From a virus: a DNA stretch of 43,130 bases. The stretch lies in IMG/VR virus record IMGVR_UViG_3300044993_000266, positions 1-43,130 of that record; one strand, given 5' to 3'. Below, piece by piece: positions 12,702 through 21,563 of this stretch. Positions within the stretch are counted from its first letter, which is position 1. Every line of letters begins with the position of its first letter. Below the pieces are notes generated by a model. That model ran no database searches and had not been told where the DNA came from. It was given only the letters and a program-made list of their open reading frames with translations. Made by a program: the position numbers and the translations under genes.

Positions 12702-14711
12702 TTACCTCCGGCCGCGCGCCCCCATCTGCCGAAAGCGATCGCGGATTGACATCTGCGGCGGCGGGGACGACGGCGCCGCAGCATCCGACGGATCGCTCCG
12801 CATCGCCGAACCGACCGACGCCCGCTCGATCCCCTCAGGGATGGCCTGGACGTTCAGCGAATAGGCCGCCGCCGCCGCCAGGCTCTCGGCATCGAGAAAA
12901 TGGTTGTCCCGCTGCCGCTTGACCCACTCGGGCTTCAGCCTGTCGTTTAGCACCCGGGTCTCCGACACCAGCTGCCGCGCATAGTCCTCGTCGATCTCGT
13001 TGTGGACGAAAAACGCCCCCGGCTGGTCCAGCCGCGCCTTCAGGCGCGAGTGCACCATCGACTTGAAGAAGTCGGAATTGATGTGCACCAAGTTGATCGA
13101 CCAGGGCAGCCGCGACCCGTCCGGCCGCACCTCGATCTTCGACACGGTGTAGGGCCGGCCGCCCAGCGTGTCCCGGCCCTTCGTCGGAAAGGCCAGATAG
13201 GCATGCCGGTGCGCCCATTCGTAGACCCGGTGCTCGTCGCCCGCGTCGGTCTTCCCCGGCCGGTAGCCGCTGTCGATGAAGACGCGCTCGATCAGCATCT
13301 CGGACATCGGATTGGTCATCAGCACCGTCAGGTCGTCCCAGACCTGCGGCGCGCTCGTGTCGCCGTAGAGATACCCATGGTCGAGCAGCCAAGACGTCCC
13401 GCGCGCGCCGAAGCCGCGGATGACATAGACCAGCGACCGGCCCTGCACATCGACGCCGGCTACGACCCGCAGAACCCCCGCCGGGGCCTTCGTCGGACGA
13501 CGCGGATAGCCGACCCGGTTGTTCAGCACCTCCTGCCATTGCGGCAGATCGCCGCCAGCGCCTGCAGTGTAGAGCTCGCCGAAAGCGGCGTTCATCACCG
13601 TCTGGACCTTGTCCTCCTCGCCCGAAAGATAGGCCGACAGATACCGCTCGGCCCGCTCGCCGAATGAGACGAAGGGCGAACACAGGCCGCTCGTCCAGCT
13701 CGACCATGTGCTGTTTTCGGGCACGTTCCGGTCGGCCCGCGCGTCCTCGATGGTCTGCCCCGGCGCGATCATCACCCCGCGCGCGATCATCTCGGGCTTG
13801 TGGTCGTCCCGGATGACCCCGCCGCAGCTCGGGCAGGCCAGATAGGCGTCCCGCCGGGCCTGCGCCGGCGTCGCGCCCTTGGGCCATTTCAGATGCCGAA
13901 ACCGCGGCACGAAGAACTCGTCGCAATGCGGGCACGGCCATGCGAAATGGTGCCGCGTCCCCTGCTGGAACAAGCGCCAGATCGGCGAGGCGATCTGCGC
14001 CGGATCGCCGACCTTCCAGAACTCCAGCCCGCTCACCGGGTCGAGCTCGGTCTCCGCGACCCCCTGCGAACAGGTCGAAACGACCGCCGTCACAAAGTCG
14101 GCATAGGTCTCGCCGCGCGCCTCCACCAGCCCCAGCGGGTCCCCCTGCCCCTTGATGTTCGCCACCATCTCGTCGTATTCGTCCACGATGCCCAGGGCGA
14201 AAGGATCGGACTTCAGCGCGATCGAACTCGCCGCCGAGGCCAGCCGGACGCGGACCCCGGCCACCAGCTTCAACGACTTCTTCATCCGCCGGCCGCGCAC
14301 GACCTTGTCAGCAAGGGTCGGGGCCTCGTTCAGCAGCGCCATCAGGCGCGGCTCGAACTGGTCGGTCACAAACTCCTTGCTCGGCCCGACATAAAGGATC
14401 GGCGCCGGGCGCTGGTCCAAGCGCGCGCCGATCACGTCGAGCACGGTGTCGGTCTTGCCGGACTGCGCAGCCGTCACCGCCACCACGCGGCGGTATCGAC
14501 CATCATGCACCGCCCTGGCGAAGGGGATCATGTAGCCGGTCAATTCGGGGTCGCGCGGACCCGGCCTGCCGGCAGACGCCGGATAACGGCGGTGCGCCGC
14601 AGCCCATACGTCAGGGGTCGTCAGCGGCGTCGGCGTAAGGAAGCTCGCCGCCCTGCACAACAAAGTCCGCCATTGATCGGAGGCTTTCCGCAATTCGGCG
14701 CTGCGCTTCAT
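12702..14711 (-). CDS. terL: Terminase large subunit, GpA type (669 aa)
   Basis: The ATPase domain has Walker A TAAQSGKT (residues 80-87) and Walker B LGIVDEYDE (D177, E178). Two zinc-type pairs (C260-PH-C263 and C293-PS-C296) lie between the ATPase and the nuclease, as in lambda gpA. The RNase-H-like nuclease begins around VVAGVDVQG (D421) and runs to the ESLAAAAAY region near 620. Lambda gpA is 641 residues. It packages DNA through the portal and cuts at cos. The ATG at 14711 lies 101 bp inside TerS, but the conserved N-terminal region (SFLTPTPLTTPDVWAAAHRR) needs this start. Confidence 0.96.
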   Translation of the reverse strand: MKRSAELRKASDQWRTLLCRAASFLTPTPLTTPDVWAAAHRRYPASAGRPGPRDPELTGYMIPFARAVHDGRYRRVVAVTAAQSGKTDTVLDVIGARLDQRPAPILYVGPSKEFVTDQFEPRLMALLNEAPTLADKVVRGRRMKKSLKLVAGVRVRLASAASSIALKSDPFALGIVDEYDEMVANIKGQGDPLGLVEARGETYADFVTAVVSTCSQGVAETELDPVSGLEFWKVGDPAQIASPIWRLFQQGTRHHFAWPCPHCDEFFVPRFRHLKWPKGATPAQARRDAYLACPSCGGVIRDDHKPEMIARGVMIAPGQTIEDARADRNVPENSTWSSWTSGLCSPFVSFGERAERYLSAYLSGEEDKVQTVMNAAFGELYTAGAGGDLPQWQEVLNNRVGYPRRPTKAPAGVLRVVAGVDVQGRSLVYVIRGFGARGTSWLLDHGYLYGDTSAPQVWDDLTVLMTNPMSEMLIERVFIDSGYRPGKTDAGDEHRVYEWAHRHAYLAFPTKGRDTLGGRPYTVSKIEVRPDGSRLPWSINLVHINSDFFKSMVHSRLKARLDQPGAFFVHNEIDEDYARQLVSETRVLNDRLKPEWVKRQRDNHFLDAESLAAAAAYSLNVQAIPEGIERASVGSAMRSDPSDAAAPSSPPPQMSIRDRFRQMGARGRR

Positions 14712-15132
14712 ACACCTCAGCCTCGATCTGCCGGCGCACCACCATGTCGCGCGTCACCCGGGCGGCCAGGCCGTTCATCTCTTCGCGGACCCGGCTGACG
14801 ACGACGTCCATCGCCGCCGTCGCATCCTCGACCGGGATCAGCTCGCGCAAGCGAACCTGATTGCGCAGCTCGATCTCCTTCGCCCGCGCCTCGCGCACCC
14901 GGCTGTCGGCCTGGGTCTTCGTATCCTTGCGCGTGTCGTCCTTAAGGAACCGGATGTAACCTTGGACCGCCCCGGCCAGCGTCGTCCGGCCCCGGACCGG
15001 AATCTCGATGTAGCCCATCTTCGACAGCTGCCGGATGCGCTCCGGCCCGATCATCAGCAGCCGACCGGCGTCCTCAAGGCTGATGGGCTCCCCCCAAGCA
15101 TCCGCCCCTCGTACTGGCATCGACGTCTCCAT
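14611..15132 (-). CDS. terS: Terminase small subunit, Nu1-like (173 aa)
   Basis: The N-terminal winged helix-turn-helix is visible as ISLEDAGRLLMIGPERIRQL...GYIEIPVRGRT, the DNA-binding part that recognises cos in the Nu1 family. A short linker and a long charged helix (residues 75-140) follow, for oligomerisation and contact with TerL. Alternative starts exist at 15132 and at Met 5 (15120). Nu1 is 181 residues. The 170 bp upstream hold a possible cos region. Confidence 0.88.
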   Translation of the reverse strand: METSMPVRGADAWGEPISLEDAGRLLMIGPERIRQLSKMGYIEIPVRGRTTLAGAVQGYIRFLKDDTRKDTKTQADSRVREARAKEIELRNQVRLRELIPVEDATAAMDVVVSRVREEMNGLAARVTRDMVVRRQIEAEVYEAQRRIAESLRSMADFVVQGGELPYADAADDP

Positions 15133-15303
15133 TTCCGCATGCCCCGGCGGCGGCCAAGATCAACCGGAAAAGCTGTCCGGTCAAAAACGCAGGCCTATCG
15201 GGCGGCCGAGGCACCGCATGTCGGCGCCCCCAGAGCGGCCCCTGAACCCCCGGGGGGGGTCTGCCGACGCATCTCGCCGCTCCTCCGGGTCCCCAGCGCG
15301 GGC
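15133..15303. other. Candidate cos region upstream of terS
   Basis: No convincing gene lies in these 171 bp. Lambda-type terminases cut at cos just before the small-subunit gene, and this is the only non-coding gap there. It contains a run of five C followed by eight G (15247-15259), a small inverted repeat (CCGGA...TCCGG type near 15165-15180), and a very short potential ORF starting near 15269 with GGAGGAG before it. The cut site cannot be fixed from sequence alone. The packaged ends are probably here, not at the window edges. Confidence 0.35.
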
Positions 15304-15870
15304 TCAGCCGGCCAACAGGCGGCCGAGCTCGTGCTGGATGCGCTGCGGCAGGTGCGAGGCCACGACTTCCTCGAAAGCGCGCTGCGACGCGGCGCGGGTC
15401 AGCGCCTCGGGGACGGCGGGGCCGTACTGGCGCTCGATCGGCAGGCGGGCGCTGCTCATCCGGGTGTACACATGCCCGCCCAGACGGGGGGCGATCACCC
15501 CGGGCGAAGGGCCCATGAACGCGCCGGGAAAACGCTGCCAGGCCCCGAAGACCTTGGCGCGCACGCCGTAGGACAGCTGCGTCGGGCGGAAGTGCTTCAG
15601 GCTGATCGGCCGGCCGGTGGCGGTCACCCCGGCAGAGAGATCGCCCTCGCCGCGGTGCGCGGCCAAGACGGTGCGAACGGCCCGCGCAGCCATGGCGCGG
15701 GGAATGGAGGTATCGGCGACGATGGCGCGGACCACGCGGGTCTTTGCCATTCGGGCGACGCGATTCAGCGCGCGGGCGAGCGCGGGTCTGGCCGCGCCCT
15801 GCCCAATGGCGGCAATCTGGTTATGGTAGCGGCGCAGGATGTCGTCGCCAAAGTCGATCTGGATGGACAC
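15304..15870 (-). CDS. Minor tail protein Z-like protein (188 aa)
   Basis: Length and pattern fit the prophage minor tail protein Z family: long N-terminal helices with ALARALNRVARMAKTRVVRAIV, then SIPRAMAARAVRTV, a beta segment (ISLKHFRPTQLSYGVRAKVFG) and a C-terminal helix. In lambda, gpZ (192 aa) is needed for a proper tail end that positions DNA. Here the gene is placed before the terminase genes and not between head and tail genes, and it belongs to a siphovirus-type family in a contractile-tail phage. It may serve as a neck protein. Ribosome site GAGGAAAG precedes the ATG. Confidence 0.7.
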   Translation of the reverse strand: MSIQIDFGDDILRRYHNQIAAIGQGAARPALARALNRVARMAKTRVVRAIVADTSIPRAMAARAVRTVLAAHRGEGDLSAGVTATGRPISLKHFRPTQLSYGVRAKVFGAWQRFPGAFMGPSPGVIAPRLGGHVYTRMSSARLPIERQYGPAVPEALTRAASQRAFEEVVASHLPQRIQHELGRLLAG

Positions 15871-15932
15871 GGGCGGCTTTCCTCTGCACGCAAAGACCCG
15901 GCGCTGTTTCCAGCCCGGTCCGCCGCCAATAC

Positions 15933-16046
15933 TCAGGAAAACGCTGCCAGCGGGTTTCTGGCGCGGTCATAGCTGCCGCCGTTGCGACCCTTGCGGCGCG
16001 GGTCGTCATATGGCGACGTCGCGGCCGGGCTGGGTGAGGGCCCGAT
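15933..16046 (-). pseudogene. Start-less reading-frame remnant between NusG and gpZ genes
   Basis: A frame opens after a stop at 16047-16049 and runs to the TGA at 15933 with very good third-position GC. It encodes a clean C-terminal-looking peptide (SPYDDPRRKGRNGGSYDRAR followed by NPLAAFS). There is no ATG, GTG or TTG. It looks like the 3' end of a once longer gene whose 5' part is lost, now lying under the NusG gene end. It could also be a leader peptide using a rare start. Confidence 0.4.
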
Positions 16047-16054
16047 CTACCGGC

Positions 16055-16082
16055 AGACTACCACATTTTGCGCAGATCGCAA
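16055..16082 (-). promoter_or_regulatory. Candidate leftward promoter before gpZ and the packaging genes
   Basis: On the minus strand, TTGCGA (16077-16082) and TAGTCT (16055-16060) are separated by 16 bp, with TGG just before the -10, giving an extended -10 character. It lies in the only sizeable gap before the late head genes. Plausible but unproven; the hexamers match consensus at 4 of 6 each. Confidence 0.35.
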
Positions 16083-16089
16083 CAGGTTG

Positions 16090-16677
16090 TCATTTTGCCA
16101 GCCGAGACACCTCAATCTCGACGGCGATGTTGCCCAGGAAGGGTGCGATGAACTGCGCGATCCCGGCATGGATCGACTGCACCTCGACGACCCAGCCACG
16201 CATGGCGCCGTCGCGGATCGTCACCCTGTCGCCCACGCGGATGCGGCGGCGCTCCTCCTCGCGCTGGCGGATTTCGGCGATCCGCGCGGGCACGCCGCGC
16301 ATCTGGGCCAGCACCAGATCGGTGATCGGCAGCGGGCGCCCGCTGTGCCCGACCACGCCGGTCAGATAGGGGCAGTCGCGCAGGACGTGCCACTGCGGCT
16401 GGCCGAGGAAGCGCGCGAAGATGTAGCGCGGCACGACGGCGGCCTCGTAGGGGACGCGCTTGACTCTGGCGCGCGGGATGGTGCGCCAGCGCTGCTCGGT
16501 CGGATACCAGCTTTCGACGCCGCGCTGGGCCAGCCAGGCCTGGGCCGAGACTTCGCGGCGCGGGGGCGTCATGAAGGCGAACCACTGCGGCGCCGAAAGG
16601 GCCTCGCCCTGGACGGCGGCAACCGCGGCGCGGGGCGCGGCGACGGACTGGCCGATCCGGTAGGGCGCGGCGGTCAC
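16090..16677 (-). CDS. Phage NusG/RfaH-type transcription factor (195 aa)
   Basis: GTG start at 16677, overlapping the preceding stop by GTGA. The NGN domain spans about residues 30-125: WFAFMTPPRREVSAQAWLAQ, the ESWYPTE motif and YIFARF, which matches the VPLFPGYVFV-like strand of NusG. The KOW domain is at about 146-195: RVGDRVTIRDGAMRGWVVEV and IEVSRLAK. NusG binds the RNA polymerase clamp helices and promotes processivity. Its place right before the late genes suggests it keeps polymerase going along the long leftward late transcript (inference). NusG paralogues such as RfaH work at defined DNA elements; none is identified here. Confidence 0.85.
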   Translation of the reverse strand: MTAAPYRIGQSVAAPRAAVAAVQGEALSAPQWFAFMTPPRREVSAQAWLAQRGVESWYPTEQRWRTIPRARVKRVPYEAAVVPRYIFARFLGQPQWHVLRDCPYLTGVVGHSGRPLPITDLVLAQMRGVPARIAEIRQREEERRRIRVGDRVTIRDGAMRGWVVEVQSIHAGIAQFIAPFLGNIAVEIEVSRLAK

Positions 16678-16844
16678 AGCAGCGCCCCTTGCGTCGGCGA
16701 TGGAGCTGGCGAGTCGATCAGCAGGTCTGGCTGACGCGCGGCTTCATCTATGCAGCGGCTGGCGATGCGGCGGGATCGCCAAGGGCAGGAACTGCAGGCA
16801 ACTAGCAGGCGATGCGGCGCTACGGGATCGGGCGCTTTTGTCAT
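16674..16844 (-). CDS. Small cysteine-motif protein (56 aa)
   Basis: ATG at 16844 overlaps the HD-protein stop by ATGA, and the stop overlaps the NusG start by GTGA. The product has CSSCPWR near residue 16 and another Cys at about residue 30, suggesting a small metal-binding knuckle; the CxxCPW pattern resembles DUF6283-type phage proteins. Function unknown. The coupled position suggests it is made together with the HD and NusG proteins. Confidence 0.6.
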   Translation of the reverse strand: MTKAPDPVAPHRLLVACSSCPWRSRRIASRCIDEAARQPDLLIDSPAPSPTQGALL

Positions 16845-17308
16845 GCTGCGCCCCTTGTCGCGACCAGCACGACGAATTGCGCGTCGAGCCATGCGCGCGC
16901 CTTGCGCCAATCCGGCCTGTCCATCAGGTGCGGGGCGTTGTGCTGCGCCCAGAGGTATGCGTCCAGCCGGTCGAGGTATTTCAGTCTGTCGCAGTCTTGT
17001 GCGCTCAGATGCATGTTGATGCCCATGTCTGCCAGCGCCTGCGCTTCAATGCGGTCAAGCGCGCCTTTCAACTTCGGGTCCGACTTGGCGGATAGCGGCG
17101 CGTCACCTGCGAAGGCTTCGCCCAGATCGTGCACGATGCAGGCCCAGATCACGGCCGGGCTCGCGTCTGGCCATGTGAGCCGTGCAAGGATGGCCATTCG
17201 TGCGCCGTGGGCGCCGGTGGTGTCGCCTGAGCGGGCCAGCCACGGTGCGCTGTCGCCGGCGTGCCAGCGTGGGGTGAGGGTTGCATACCATGCGGCGGGC
17301 GGGGTCAT
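16841..17308 (-). CDS. HD-domain phosphohydrolase-like protein (155 aa)
   Basis: ATG at 17308 overlaps the previous stop by ATGA. The HD signature is visible as His34 (TGAHGARMA), His60-Asp61 with Glu64 (IVHDLGEAF), and Asp113 or Asp116 (YLDRLDAYLW), a typical H...HD...D metal site. The GDAP/P-type segment after HDLGE is as in YfbR-like 5'-nucleotidases. It may hydrolyse (deoxy)nucleoside monophosphates to change host nucleotide pools during replication; substrate is not shown by sequence. Confidence 0.8.
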   Translation of the reverse strand: MTPPAAWYATLTPRWHAGDSAPWLARSGDTTGAHGARMAILARLTWPDASPAVIWACIVHDLGEAFAGDAPLSAKSDPKLKGALDRIEAQALADMGINMHLSAQDCDRLKYLDRLDAYLWAQHNAPHLMDRPDWRKARAWLDAQFVVLVATRGAA

Positions 17309-18161: not shown

Positions 18162-19034
18162 TCATGCCATGCCTGCCATTCGCTTCCACTGGCTGCGCTT
18201 GCGGTCGACGTCCGCTGGCGCCGCTGCGGGTCCGGTCTTGGGCGTGACGACGTCCTGCATGGCGGCGGTGAAGTATCCGAACCGTCTGGGCTGCCAGTCG
18301 GGTTGCTTGGATCGCTGGCGGCGGCACACGTCGCCGATCACCCTGCACTGCGCGTCGAGGGACAGGCCCATGGCGGCCCAGCCTCGGGCCTCGGCCATGT
18401 CGGCCATGGTTCCGAGGAAGCTCGCCGGTCCGGCGACGCCATCCGGTCCCAGGCCCATTGCCGCGAGGAGGCGCTCGCGGGTCGTGTCGTCCGGGACGGC
18501 ACCCGGTCGTGGTTCCGGGACGGCACCCGGTTTGTTTTCCCCAGGCAGCGCAGCAGCCTCGCGCGCTTGCGCGCGCGACTGCGCTGAGGGTTCTATGGGG
18601 GTTCTTTTGGGTTCGGGTGCATCTGCTGCGGGGTTTGACCGCAGCAAATGCGGGGTATGAGCGCACGTGCTGCGGGGTTTCGGATCGGATACGGCGCACG
18701 TGCTGCGGGGTTTCGGATCGGATACGGCGCACGTGCTGCGGGGTTTGGTGGGCTCATTCACCGTAGCTGCTGCGGGGTTCGGGCACACCGTGTAGACGTT
18801 TGTCTTGCGCTTTCCGCCCCCGCCAGAGACGCGCAGATAGCCCGCTTTCTGCAGCGCCCGGATGTTCGTCTGGACCGCCCGCTCGCTCAGGCCGGTCCGC
18901 TTGCACAGTCTCTCGATGGAGGGAAAACAGCGCCCTTGGTCATCGGCGTGGTCGGCCAGTGCCAGCATGATCAGTCGCTCGGTCGGTCCGAGCGCGGCAC
19001 TTTCGAATATCGCGGTAATCAGCCTGTTACTCAC
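18162..19034 (-). CDS. Winged-helix replication initiator, lambda O-like role (290 aa)
   Basis: GTG at 19034 (VSNRLITAIFESAALGPTERL) with AAGGGG 7 nt upstream. Residues 10-80 are a winged helix: LIMLALADHADDQGRCFPSIERL, GLSERAVQTNIRALQKAGYL, typical of phage replication proteins that bind the origin. Residues about 80-160 are a low-complexity linker with an 11-residue tandem repeat (PRSTCAVSDPK). The C-terminal domain ends RRFGYFTAAMQDVV. It is next to DnaB, so it probably loads that helicase. The linker DNA holds repeated iteron-like sites, as in lambda O. Confidence 0.82.
   Translation of the reverse strand: MSNRLITAIFESAALGPTERLIMLALADHADDQGRCFPSIERLCKRTGLSERAVQTNIRALQKAGYLRVSGGGGKRKTNVYTVCPNPAAATVNEPTKPRSTCAVSDPKPRSTCAVSDPKPRSTCAHTPHLLRSNPAADAPEPKRTPIEPSAQSRAQAREAAALPGENKPGAVPEPRPGAVPDDTTRERLLAAMGLGPDGVAGPASFLGTMADMAEARGWAAMGLSLDAQCRVIGDVCRRQRSKQPDWQPRRFGYFTAAMQDVVTPKTGPAAAPADVDRKRSQWKRMAGMA
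18624..18779. repeat. Iteron-like repeats in the initiator gene, candidate replication origin
   Basis: The 12-mer TGCTGCGGGGTT occurs at 18624, 18668, 18701, 18734 and 18768, with a degenerate copy at 18646. Spacings are 22, 22, 33, 33 and 34 bp, close to whole turns of the helix. The copies are read in different protein frames, so DNA-level constraint is likely. The middle copies are part of a 33-bp tandem repeat from 18661 to 18746. Lambda's ori has four iterons inside gene O; this arrangement is analogous. Confidence 0.65.
18661..18746. repeat. 33-bp tandem repeat (2.6 copies)
   Basis: Units begin at 18661, 18694 and 18727 (last one partial) and are exact. On the minus strand each encodes the 11-residue unit PRSTCAVSDPK. 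Each carries one iteron-like core. Confidence 0.9.
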
Positions 19035-19074: not shown

Positions 19075-20481
19075 TCACAGTCGATCCTCCCAGACCAGGT
19101 TGGTGGCCGGATTGAAGCGGGCATGCGCGGTTCCGATCTCGCCCTGGCGCTGCTTGGCGACGATCAGTTCGAGGCGATTGCGCACCGCGTTCATGGCCGC
19201 AGTCCAGTCGGCCAGCGCCTCGGGATCATCCGGACCCGGGCGATCTCGTTCAAGGTAGTATTCGTCGCGGTAGCAGAAGATCACGCAGTCGGCGTCCTGC
19301 TCCAGCTGGCCGGACTCGCGCAGGTCCGACAGCATGGGGCGCTTGTCGTCGCGGGTTTCGACCTGCCGCGACAGCTGCGACAGCGCGACCACCGGCACGT
19401 TCAGACTGCCCGCCACTGCCTTGAGCGCGATGCTGATTTCGGTGATCGCCTCGTAGCGCGTCCGGGCGGTCGAGCGCAGCAGCTGGGCGTAATCGACGAT
19501 CAGGAGGCGCATGTTGTTGCCCATCGCGCGCTTGGCCTGCTGCGCGCCGGCCAGCAGCGCGCCGATGTCGGCGTAGCTCCGGGGCAGGAACGTGATCGGC
19601 AGCCTGGCCACCGCTTTCGCCTGCGTGACGGCGTGGTGCCACTGCGGCTCGGTCATGGTGCCGCGCCGGATGTCGGCGTAGGCAATCCCCTGCCCCGCCT
19701 GCGCGGTCGCCTCGGACAGCGCGCGCAGAGCCATCGCCTCGGGATTCATCTCCAGGCTGGCGATCACCACCCCGTGCCCGGCGCGGGCGGCGTTGAGGGC
19801 CGCGGCCAGCGCGACGGCGGTCTTGCCCATGCTTGGGCGCCCGGCGATCAGCGTCAGCTCGCCGGGGTAGAACCCGCCGATCAGGCTGTCCAGGCTGGCG
19901 ATGCCGGTGGGGACGGAGCCGTCGTCGTCGCCCAGGTAGGCCGCTTGGGCCATGTCCACGGCCTTGCGCAGCGCCGCCGCCATGCTGACCGGCCGGGCAG
20001 AGTTCTGGGGCATGTCGAGGGTCAGGAGCGCGCCCTCGATGCGCTGCGCGATCGCCGCGGCCGGCTCCTCGTTGCGCGCGATGGCGGCCTGCCCCTCGAT
20101 CAGCACTTGCGACATCTGGCGCTTGACGCGCAGGTCGGCCAGCATCTCGGCGAAGGGCCGCACGGCCTCATGCGGCGCGCCGGCCGCGGCGAGGCGGGCC
20201 AGATAGCCCACGCCGCCAAGCTCGGCCAGCCCGGCCTCCTCGCGCATCGCGGCGGCGACGGTGACAGGCGAGACGAGATGCCCCGCTGCGTCTTTCTCGC
20301 GCGCAGCGGCGAAGATGCGCGCGTGCACGGGATCGAAGAAAAGCGCCTCGCCCCCCAGAGCGACGATGGTCGAGATGTGCCGCGGGTTCAGCAGCACCGC
20401 GCCCAGTAGCTGCTGCTCGGCCTCGACGCTGTGCACGGCGTCGTCTGTGGTCGAAAACCGCAGGCGGTGGACTTCAACCAT
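19075..20481 (-). CDS. dnaB: Replicative DNA helicase DnaB (468 aa)
   Basis: I take ATG 20481 (MVEVHRLRFSTTDD). The N-terminal domain (SVEAEQQLLGAVLLNPRHI) is the primase/loader interface. The RecA-like domain has Walker A GRPSMGKT (residues 214-221), Walker B LLIVDYAQLL, and the LSQLSRQVE motif with arginine-finger region near the C-terminus (ADCVIFCYRDEYY). Length matches E. coli DnaB (471). It unwinds the fork and recruits host primase. The stop lies 40 bp before the initiator GTG. The phage has no primase or polymerase here, so host enzymes must do synthesis. Confidence 0.96.
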   Translation of the reverse strand: MVEVHRLRFSTTDDAVHSVEAEQQLLGAVLLNPRHISTIVALGGEALFFDPVHARIFAAAREKDAAGHLVSPVTVAAAMREEAGLAELGGVGYLARLAAAGAPHEAVRPFAEMLADLRVKRQMSQVLIEGQAAIARNEEPAAAIAQRIEGALLTLDMPQNSARPVSMAAALRKAVDMAQAAYLGDDDGSVPTGIASLDSLIGGFYPGELTLIAGRPSMGKTAVALAAALNAARAGHGVVIASLEMNPEAMALRALSEATAQAGQGIAYADIRRGTMTEPQWHHAVTQAKAVARLPITFLPRSYADIGALLAGAQQAKRAMGNNMRLLIVDYAQLLRSTARTRYEAITEISIALKAVAGSLNVPVVALSQLSRQVETRDDKRPMLSDLRESGQLEQDADCVIFCYRDEYYLERDRPGPDDPEALADWTAAMNAVRNRLELIVAKQRQGEIGTAHARFNPATNLVWEDRL

Positions 20482-20740: not shown

Positions 20741-21165
20741 GCTGATTTCCTCCAAAAGCAAGCCTTTTGCACGCGCGCCGCCTCGGCGCGCATGCGCTCG
20801 GCCAGCTCGACCTGCCAGAACTCGGCGATGCGGATCGTACGAACCCGGCCCGGGCCGCGCCTGGGCAGGCCGAACCGCTTGACCGCTTGGCGAAGGGTGT
20901 CCGGCGCGGCGCCGAAGTGGGCGCAGATGTCCGCCCCCAGGACGCCGGCGGTCCACATCCGGCGCAGCAGGTCGGGATCGTGCCAGACGGTCAGACGCTC
21001 GACCGGGAAGCCACGCGGCGGCAGGCCGCGCTTGCGGGCGCGCAGGCAGACGGCCTGCTGGGTGATGCCCAGCATCGCGCCGATCTTGGTGGTGGACAGG
21101 CGCGTGTCGAGCCAGAGCCGCCGGAACTCGGCCAGCGTGACGGTCCTGCTGCGCTTGCCGCTCAT
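20737..21165 (-). CDS. Double helix-turn-helix DNA-binding protein (142 aa)
   Basis: ATG 21165 overlaps the rusA stop by ATGA. Two helix-turn-helix-like blocks are visible: LSTTKIGAMLGITQQAVCLR followed by ARKRGLPPR, and GVLGADICAHFGAAPDTLRQ followed by AVKRFGLPRR. Both end in basic residues with a GLP-type turn. Such tandem blocks suit an operator-binding regulator. Which operator is unknown. Confidence 0.7.
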   Translation of the reverse strand: MSGKRSRTVTLAEFRRLWLDTRLSTTKIGAMLGITQQAVCLRARKRGLPPRGFPVERLTVWHDPDLLRRMWTAGVLGADICAHFGAAPDTLRQAVKRFGLPRRGPGRVRTIRIAEFWQVELAERMRAEAARVQKACFWRKSA

Positions 21166-21563
21166 GCCGGCACCACATGGACGCAAGTGCCCTCGATCTC
21201 GCCCCAGACCTTGCGGACGGCCAGGTCGGCGACCTGGGCGTCGTCGCCCCAGGCAATCCGGTTCAGACCGTCCTTGATGGCCTTGGCGACATTGTCGCTG
21301 TCCGGCTTCTGGGTGTGCGGCCGCCCGATCATCTCGGCCCGCTTGCGCTTGGACCACGACGCGGGCGGGGCGAATGTGGCGATCACCGTCAGCCGGACCG
21401 GGCCCTCGATCGGCGCGGGAAAAAGCGGCGCTGCGATGGTGCGCACCACGTCCTCGAACCGGGCGTTTTCGGCGGGGTTGAAGGCCCGCGCGCGACCGCG
21501 CACCGCGCCGACGCGATGGCGCTTCTTGGCGTACGGCTTGCCGGGGATGGTGAGGATTGTCAT
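21162..21563 (-). CDS. rusA: RusA-family Holliday junction resolvase (133 aa)
   Basis: The catalytic aspartates are visible in QKPDSDNVAKAIKDGLN (D88, D90) and WGDDAQV (D107, D108). N-terminal IPGKPYAKKRHRVG with the Lys-Arg cluster, and the VWGEIEGTCVHV end fit the family (E. coli RusA is 120 residues). It resolves four-way junctions formed by replication and RecT-type recombination, needed for clean packaging of concatemers. Both ends are coupled by ATGA. Confidence 0.93.
   Translation of the reverse strand: MTILTIPGKPYAKKRHRVGAVRGRARAFNPAENARFEDVVRTIAAPLFPAPIEGPVRLTVIATFAPPASWSKRKRAEMIGRPHTQKPDSDNVAKAIKDGLNRIAWGDDAQVADLAVRKVWGEIEGTCVHVVPA

Follow-up and report, generated by a model that had tools for sequence, protein, structure and literature searches.

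A cluster of repeats inside the replication initiator gene of a virus (IMG/VR record IMGVR_UViG_3300044993_000266, of which the 43,130 nucleotides analysed are hereafter called the window) very probably marks the sites where the phage replication protein binds within its own gene to start copying of the genome. The evidence lies in properties of the sequences themselves: the repeats are dyads, they are phased along the helix, they are independent of the reading frame and conserved across a family, the least stable DNA of the gene has a set position next to them, and their sequence covaries with the recognition helix of the initiator. From these we infer, with high confidence, a lambda-like intragenic origin. 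In this scheme, the winged-helix domain of the initiator, probably as a dimer, would bind six dyad iterons (CCGCA-N5-TGCGS), which the 22/22/33/33/34 bp spacing would align roughly along the same face of the helix so that an O-some-like complex could be built. The complex would strain the adjacent, weakly paired stretch bearing a decayed AACCRTCA triplet until it opens, and the phage DnaB encoded next door would then be loaded at the opened stretch. Iterons and triplet are translated as what is predicted to be a flexible linker, so the constraint on the DNA would outweigh that on the protein and the repeats could take any frame.

The initiator gene (18162-19034, minus strand) encodes 290 residues and runs from a GTG start at 19034, set from homologues, to a stop at 18162. 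The protein combines an N-terminal HTH_36 domain (Pfam, 1.9e-18) with a match to PHROG 391, "replication initiation O-like" (2e-22), the two marks of the HTH_36/PHROG 391 O-like initiators, and it also matches PHROG 1032 (1e-21). Its AlphaFold2 model, in which pLDDT exceeds 90 for most of residues 1-90, contains a helix-turn-helix and a beta wing; the winged-helix DNA-binding domain spans residues 1-85 (18780-19034, minus strand), and the recognition helix, as placed by the model, residues 51-64 (ERAVQTNIRALQKA; 18843-18884, minus strand). Comparison of the whole model by Foldseek is weak (TM to the query of about 0.2) and was used solely to confirm the winged-helix fold, the matches including wHTH, DnaD N-domain, MarR and Fur-type folds. 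Directly upstream and in the same direction lies the gene of a phage DnaB-type replicative helicase (19075-20481, minus strand; DnaB_C 1.3e-71, DnaB N-terminal domain 4.7e-18, PHROG 19 8e-82), so that the winged-helix gene beside dnaB described in a first-pass annotation of this DNA is indeed present; no separate helicase loader was identified. A RusA-like Holliday junction resolvase (21162-21563, minus strand; PHROG 140, 4.5e-36) is also encoded near this dnaB-initiator module.

The 12-mer TGCTGCGGGGTT occurs exactly at 18624, 18668, 18701, 18734 and 18768 (plus strand). The rest of the window has no exact copy, and matches with 2 mismatches stay at chance level there. Its core TGCGGGGT is also found at 18649, a sixth copy that is incomplete by the 12-mer and that we count mainly because the resulting series in gene order (34, 33, 33, 22 and 22 bp) fits the spacing rule of the family. 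Exact matches thereby bear out the five copies, the degenerate one and the spacings (22, 22, 33, 33 and 34 bp) of the first-pass annotation, and the offsets within the gene (255, 289, 322, 355, 377 and 399, in frames 0, 1, 1, 1, 2 and 0) agree with its two or three reading frames, two being used without the degenerate copy and three with it. Other parts of that description need amending. The 12-mer is a real repeat but not the complete unit: when the copies are aligned with their flanks, this proves to be a 15-bp dyad, CCGCA-N5-TGCGS, whose two arms and centre measure 5 bp each (p=0.01 for the symmetry of the window iterons, column shuffles). The degenerate copy does belong to the array, but it is the only perfect palindrome among the six (CCGCATTTGCTGCGG). 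The whole feature, at 18589-18775, reaches slightly beyond the proposed limits of 18624-18779. On the minus strand, the dyads are iteron 1 (18761-18775, CCGCAGCAGCTACGG, frame 0), iterons 2, 3 and 4 (18727-18741, 18694-18708 and 18661-18675, all CCGCAGCACGTGCGC and in frame 1), iteron 5 (18639-18653, frame 2), which is the palindromic copy and occupies the conserved 22+22 position, and iteron 6 (18617-18631, CCGCAGCAGATGCAC, frame 0), the last ahead of the putative unwinding element.

Could the repeats be selected as protein, for instance as a repetitive linker (NPAA, KPRSTC), with the DNA similarity as a by-product? Three of the six copies do share a frame: iterons 2-4 are part of a near-exact tandem duplication of 33 bp (18668-18745, no strand assigned), that is of 11 codons encoding KPRSTCAVSDP, and because they are inside it the copies at 18668, 18701 and 18734 are not independent. 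Taken over the three frames, however, the copies encode dissimilar peptides (NPAA, KPRST and TPHL), and the stretch that they encode falls in residues ~91-180, for which AlphaFold2 confidence is low, as for a disordered linker. Moreover, shuffling synonymous codons with protein and codon usage fixed never reproduces the observed counts: AACCCCGCAGCA is present in 5 copies against at most 2 in 3000 shuffles, and the gene contains 32 out-of-frame pairs of identical 9-mers against a maximum of 15 in 3000 synonymous shuffles. Homologues also change the frame while keeping the DNA word: relatives with 32-43% protein identity retain AACCCCGCAGCA in other frames, where it encodes other peptides. The first-pass annotation, which had already discounted protein repetition, had proposed this comparison with related phages on the reasoning that a peptide kept while the 12-mer is lost would speak against iterons; the opposite is found. 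Selection on the peptide is thus scarcely credible, and we retain the reading of the repeats as DNA sites.

The layout is general. Homologues were gathered from viral and bacterial contigs, yielding 114 distinct genes from many phyla, and 83 of these (73%) contain out-of-frame repeats beyond what synonymous shuffles produce (p<=0.01). In neighbouring genes, used as a control, the figure is 7 of 150 (5%), which rules out that GC-rich phage genes show such repeats in general; lambda O, the positive control, passes the same test (0 of 500 shuffles). About a quarter of the homologues have no significant out-of-frame repeats, and some of these may be real absences. A second set of homologues, found via the triplet pattern described below and tested for repeats only in the DNA 5' of the triplet, gives significance in 50 of 60 cases. 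The iteron sequence itself differs from group to group (CCCCGCAG, CCCCGAAC, GGGTGACA, GGGTGCAA and others) while the layout is stable: the 468 spacings between neighbouring copies peak at 17, 21-23 and 33-34 bp, 74% of them cannot be divided by 3, and most homologues end the array on about 22+22. Dyad symmetry is likewise shared, being detected at p<=0.05 in 49 of 74 related genes (column shuffles). In mEp044, a phage of E. coli K-12 of the same type, the iterons (GGTAGTGACAC) follow each other at 23/22/23 bp. For family spacings of 19 bp or more, the best zero-phase period is 11.1 bp; a period of ~11.1 bp rather than 10.5 looks as if the sites were set for slightly underwound DNA.

Iteron sequence varies with the recognition-helix residues of the product of the same gene, which argues for self-recognition. 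Covariation was scored from the pairwise similarity of iterons between genes after regressing out winged-helix identity, and in this analysis, in which relatedness is only partly removed, helix positions 50-58 stand out from all other columns (p=5.5e-4). The columns most tied to iteron sequence are 56, 55 and 52, followed by 41 and by 72 in the wing; this ranking sets aside residues 87-89, which are themselves encoded by the iterons, and one insert column that the window protein lacks. Among 90 representatives with less than 70% identity, T, N, G or Q at position 56 goes with CGCA half-sites in 17 of 17 cases, the choice being between CGCA and GAAC, and K or A with GAAC in 10 of 12; R56 goes with GTGAC in 16 of 33, a half-site seen in 2 of the 57 that lack R. 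These associations point to an initiator that reads sites in its own gene, and across the family iterons and initiator protein appear to have changed together. They also bear on the idea that a host factor or another phage protein reads the iterons and that the initiator gene merely hosts them. That idea draws on the near invariance of AACCRTCA over many host phyla, since the reader of this motif could be something other than the variable part of the initiator, but the covariation of the iterons with the recognition helix encoded by the same gene runs against it, and we consider it very unlikely. For the iterons, recognition by the initiator itself is therefore the reading that we keep.

Whatever their iteron sequence, most homologues have three AACCRTCA copies, spaced at 10-12 bp, immediately 3' of the last iteron. 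The motif occurs 167 times in the 114 genes, against a mean of 25.5 and a maximum of 40 in 200 sets of synonymous shuffles, and 58 copies, where ~14 are expected, are off the main frame, which reads Glu-Pro-Ser (EPS). In most genes some 20-25 bp separate the first copy from the start of the last iteron. AT content in the family peaks by 14 points at the triplet, and in 62 of 72 homologues the triplet stretch ranks among the 10% of the gene with the lowest stability. In the window, the corresponding DUE-like element (18589-18614, minus strand) consists of three GAACCC copies at 10 and 11 bp, which we take for a decayed AACCRTCA triplet: one copy is within 1 mismatch of AACCRTCA, and as a triplet it is weakly above chance (123 of 5000 synonymous shuffles). 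The stretch nevertheless belongs to the least stable ~1.4% of 36-bp stretches in the gene.

The set position of this easily melted DNA also helps to distinguish an origin from a cluster of operators. Autoregulation, and not replication, might in principle be the role of dyad sites that lie in the gene of a winged-helix protein, here one with MarR and Fur-type folds among its weak structural matches. The sites, however, lie ~260-400 bp inside the coding sequence and not at a promoter, the least stable stretch of the gene comes after them at a fixed distance, the gene adjoins dnaB here and P in MD8 and D14E, and the protein matches PHROG families of replication initiation. We therefore regard autoregulation as very unlikely and an origin as the much better account of the array and of the stretch that follows it.

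The triplet is also found when it alone is sought. A scan of 2.9 million viral contigs in IMG/VR returned at least 80 loci, and 61 of the 80 matches listed closely follow an initiator winged helix on its 3' side and share its strand, while none of these 80 is antisense to one. Of the remainder, several are truncated by contig ends and most others are simple repeats. Microsatellite repeats of the AACCGTCACCG type (L172, L192, L197, L198, L203 and L211), other simple repeats (L145, L177, L209 and L222), matches at contig ends and matches in unrelated coding repeats were not scored as positives. The triplet at 10-12 bp is nearly invariant, while the iterons vary, in phages whose hosts differ widely (loci L063-L142 and L145-L224). 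At one locus (L179, 7161-7190 in reverse-complement coordinates), AACCATCAAGC repeats at 11 bp encode a TIKQPSSNHQ-like peptide in a protein that may resemble primosomal or DnaD-type proteins of Gram-positive phages; the AACCRTCA element may reach beyond the HTH_36 family.

Intragenic origins as such are not new: they are known from lambda O and from gene 38 of Bacillus phage SPP1. Ori-lambda, in lambda as in the lambdoid phages P27 and 933W, comprises four to six iterons with an unwinding stretch immediately 3', and the lambda iterons are imperfect inverted repeats bound by O dimers (PMC7466680). The window has the same elements: repeated sites (six, within the range for lambda) in the middle of the initiator gene, a dyad in each site and an easily unwound flank immediately 3'. 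This substantiates the likeness to lambda ori within gene O drawn in the first-pass annotation, as phased dyad iterons in a winged-helix initiator gene are followed by an easily melted stretch. Annotated lambda iterons are spaced by 20, 24 and 23. The proteins, as was also claimed, show no evident similarity, in spite of the "O-like" name of PHROG 391: lambda O matches PF04492 (5.7e-36) and not HTH_36, the window protein, an HTH_36 member, has no PF04492 (Phage_rep_O) match at E<=1, which excludes it from the lambda family, and a profile comparison between the two, with O represented by a single lambda sequence, reaches an hhalign probability of 4.7%. Two further differences are that the AT-rich stretch of lambda lacks AACCRTCA, unlike the family of the window, and that lambda O adjoins a P-type loader whereas the window initiator adjoins a phage DnaB gene.

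Pseudomonas phage MD8, with an initiator of the HTH_36 type, is closer: CACCCCCGCAG occurs seven times at 17, 17, 17, 21, 23 and 22 bp in several frames and is followed by AACCRTCA copies, although here, unlike in the window, a P-like loader follows the initiator and there is no phage dnaB. Repeats inside this O-like gene have already been remarked upon (PMC8508860), in passages that do not deal with frames, phasing, dyads, the triplet or covariation. SPP1, with oriL in gene 38, resembles the window in its intragenic origin but is a Gram-positive system with a loader (gp39), a helicase (gp40) and a second origin (oriR), while no second iteron array was found elsewhere in the window. For what the triplet could do, iteron plasmids offer the best model: at the origins of RK2 (TrfA) and F (RepE), phased double-stranded iterons stand beside repeated, sequence-specific DUE motifs that Rep binds as single-stranded DNA (PMC10797057). 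By analogy with these plasmids, the AACCRTCA triplet may be the part that opens. Unlike in the plasmid Rep proteins of this comparison, the one confidently predicted domain of the window initiator is a single winged helix.

The first-pass annotation had neither the dyad nor the DUE-like AACCRTCA triplet, and it did not note how general the layout is or that the iterons covary with the recognition helix. In the literature that we searched, whose coverage of subscription journals is thin, we found no description of family-wide frame-independent phased dyads, of the AACCRTCA element or of the helix covariation. A search for AACCRTCA itself returned no paper on origins, as judged by title, and in one of the papers returned the motif is a ribosome-binding-site coincidence. 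The chances seem evenly balanced that a very widespread class of phage origins, with hosts from proteobacteria to actinobacteria and cyanobacteria, has one two-part, frame-independent design within the initiator gene: (i), fast-evolving dyad iterons read by a 52/55/56 helix code; (ii), a slowly evolving element, AACCRTCA three times at intervals of one helical turn, read as duplex or single-stranded DNA by a conserved partner that opens the DNA or positions the helicase. Few uncultured phages have a known origin; should the design hold, scanning one gene would pinpoint the origin to the base pair in a very large group of phages, and a few residues would suffice to predict the specificity of the initiator. 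This bears on replicon interference and on the joint evolution of an initiator and an origin that share a gene. It also raises the question of what reads AACCRTCA, conserved as it is while the iterons vary. The array is, besides, a clear case of selection at the DNA level overriding the reading frame within a coding sequence.

Some further features of the region deserve mention. No switch in GC skew is seen at 18.6 kb in the window; cumulative GC skew turns near 16 kb (14000-17000), ~2.5 kb off the proposed origin, in a stretch that holds the terminase small subunit, a tail-completion protein and an antiterminator-like gene. Finally, the 3' half of the initiator gene contains an exact direct repeat of 18 bp (TCCGGGACGGCACCCGGT; 18490-18531), spaced by 24 bp, which is in-frame and encodes the peptide PGAVPxPR.
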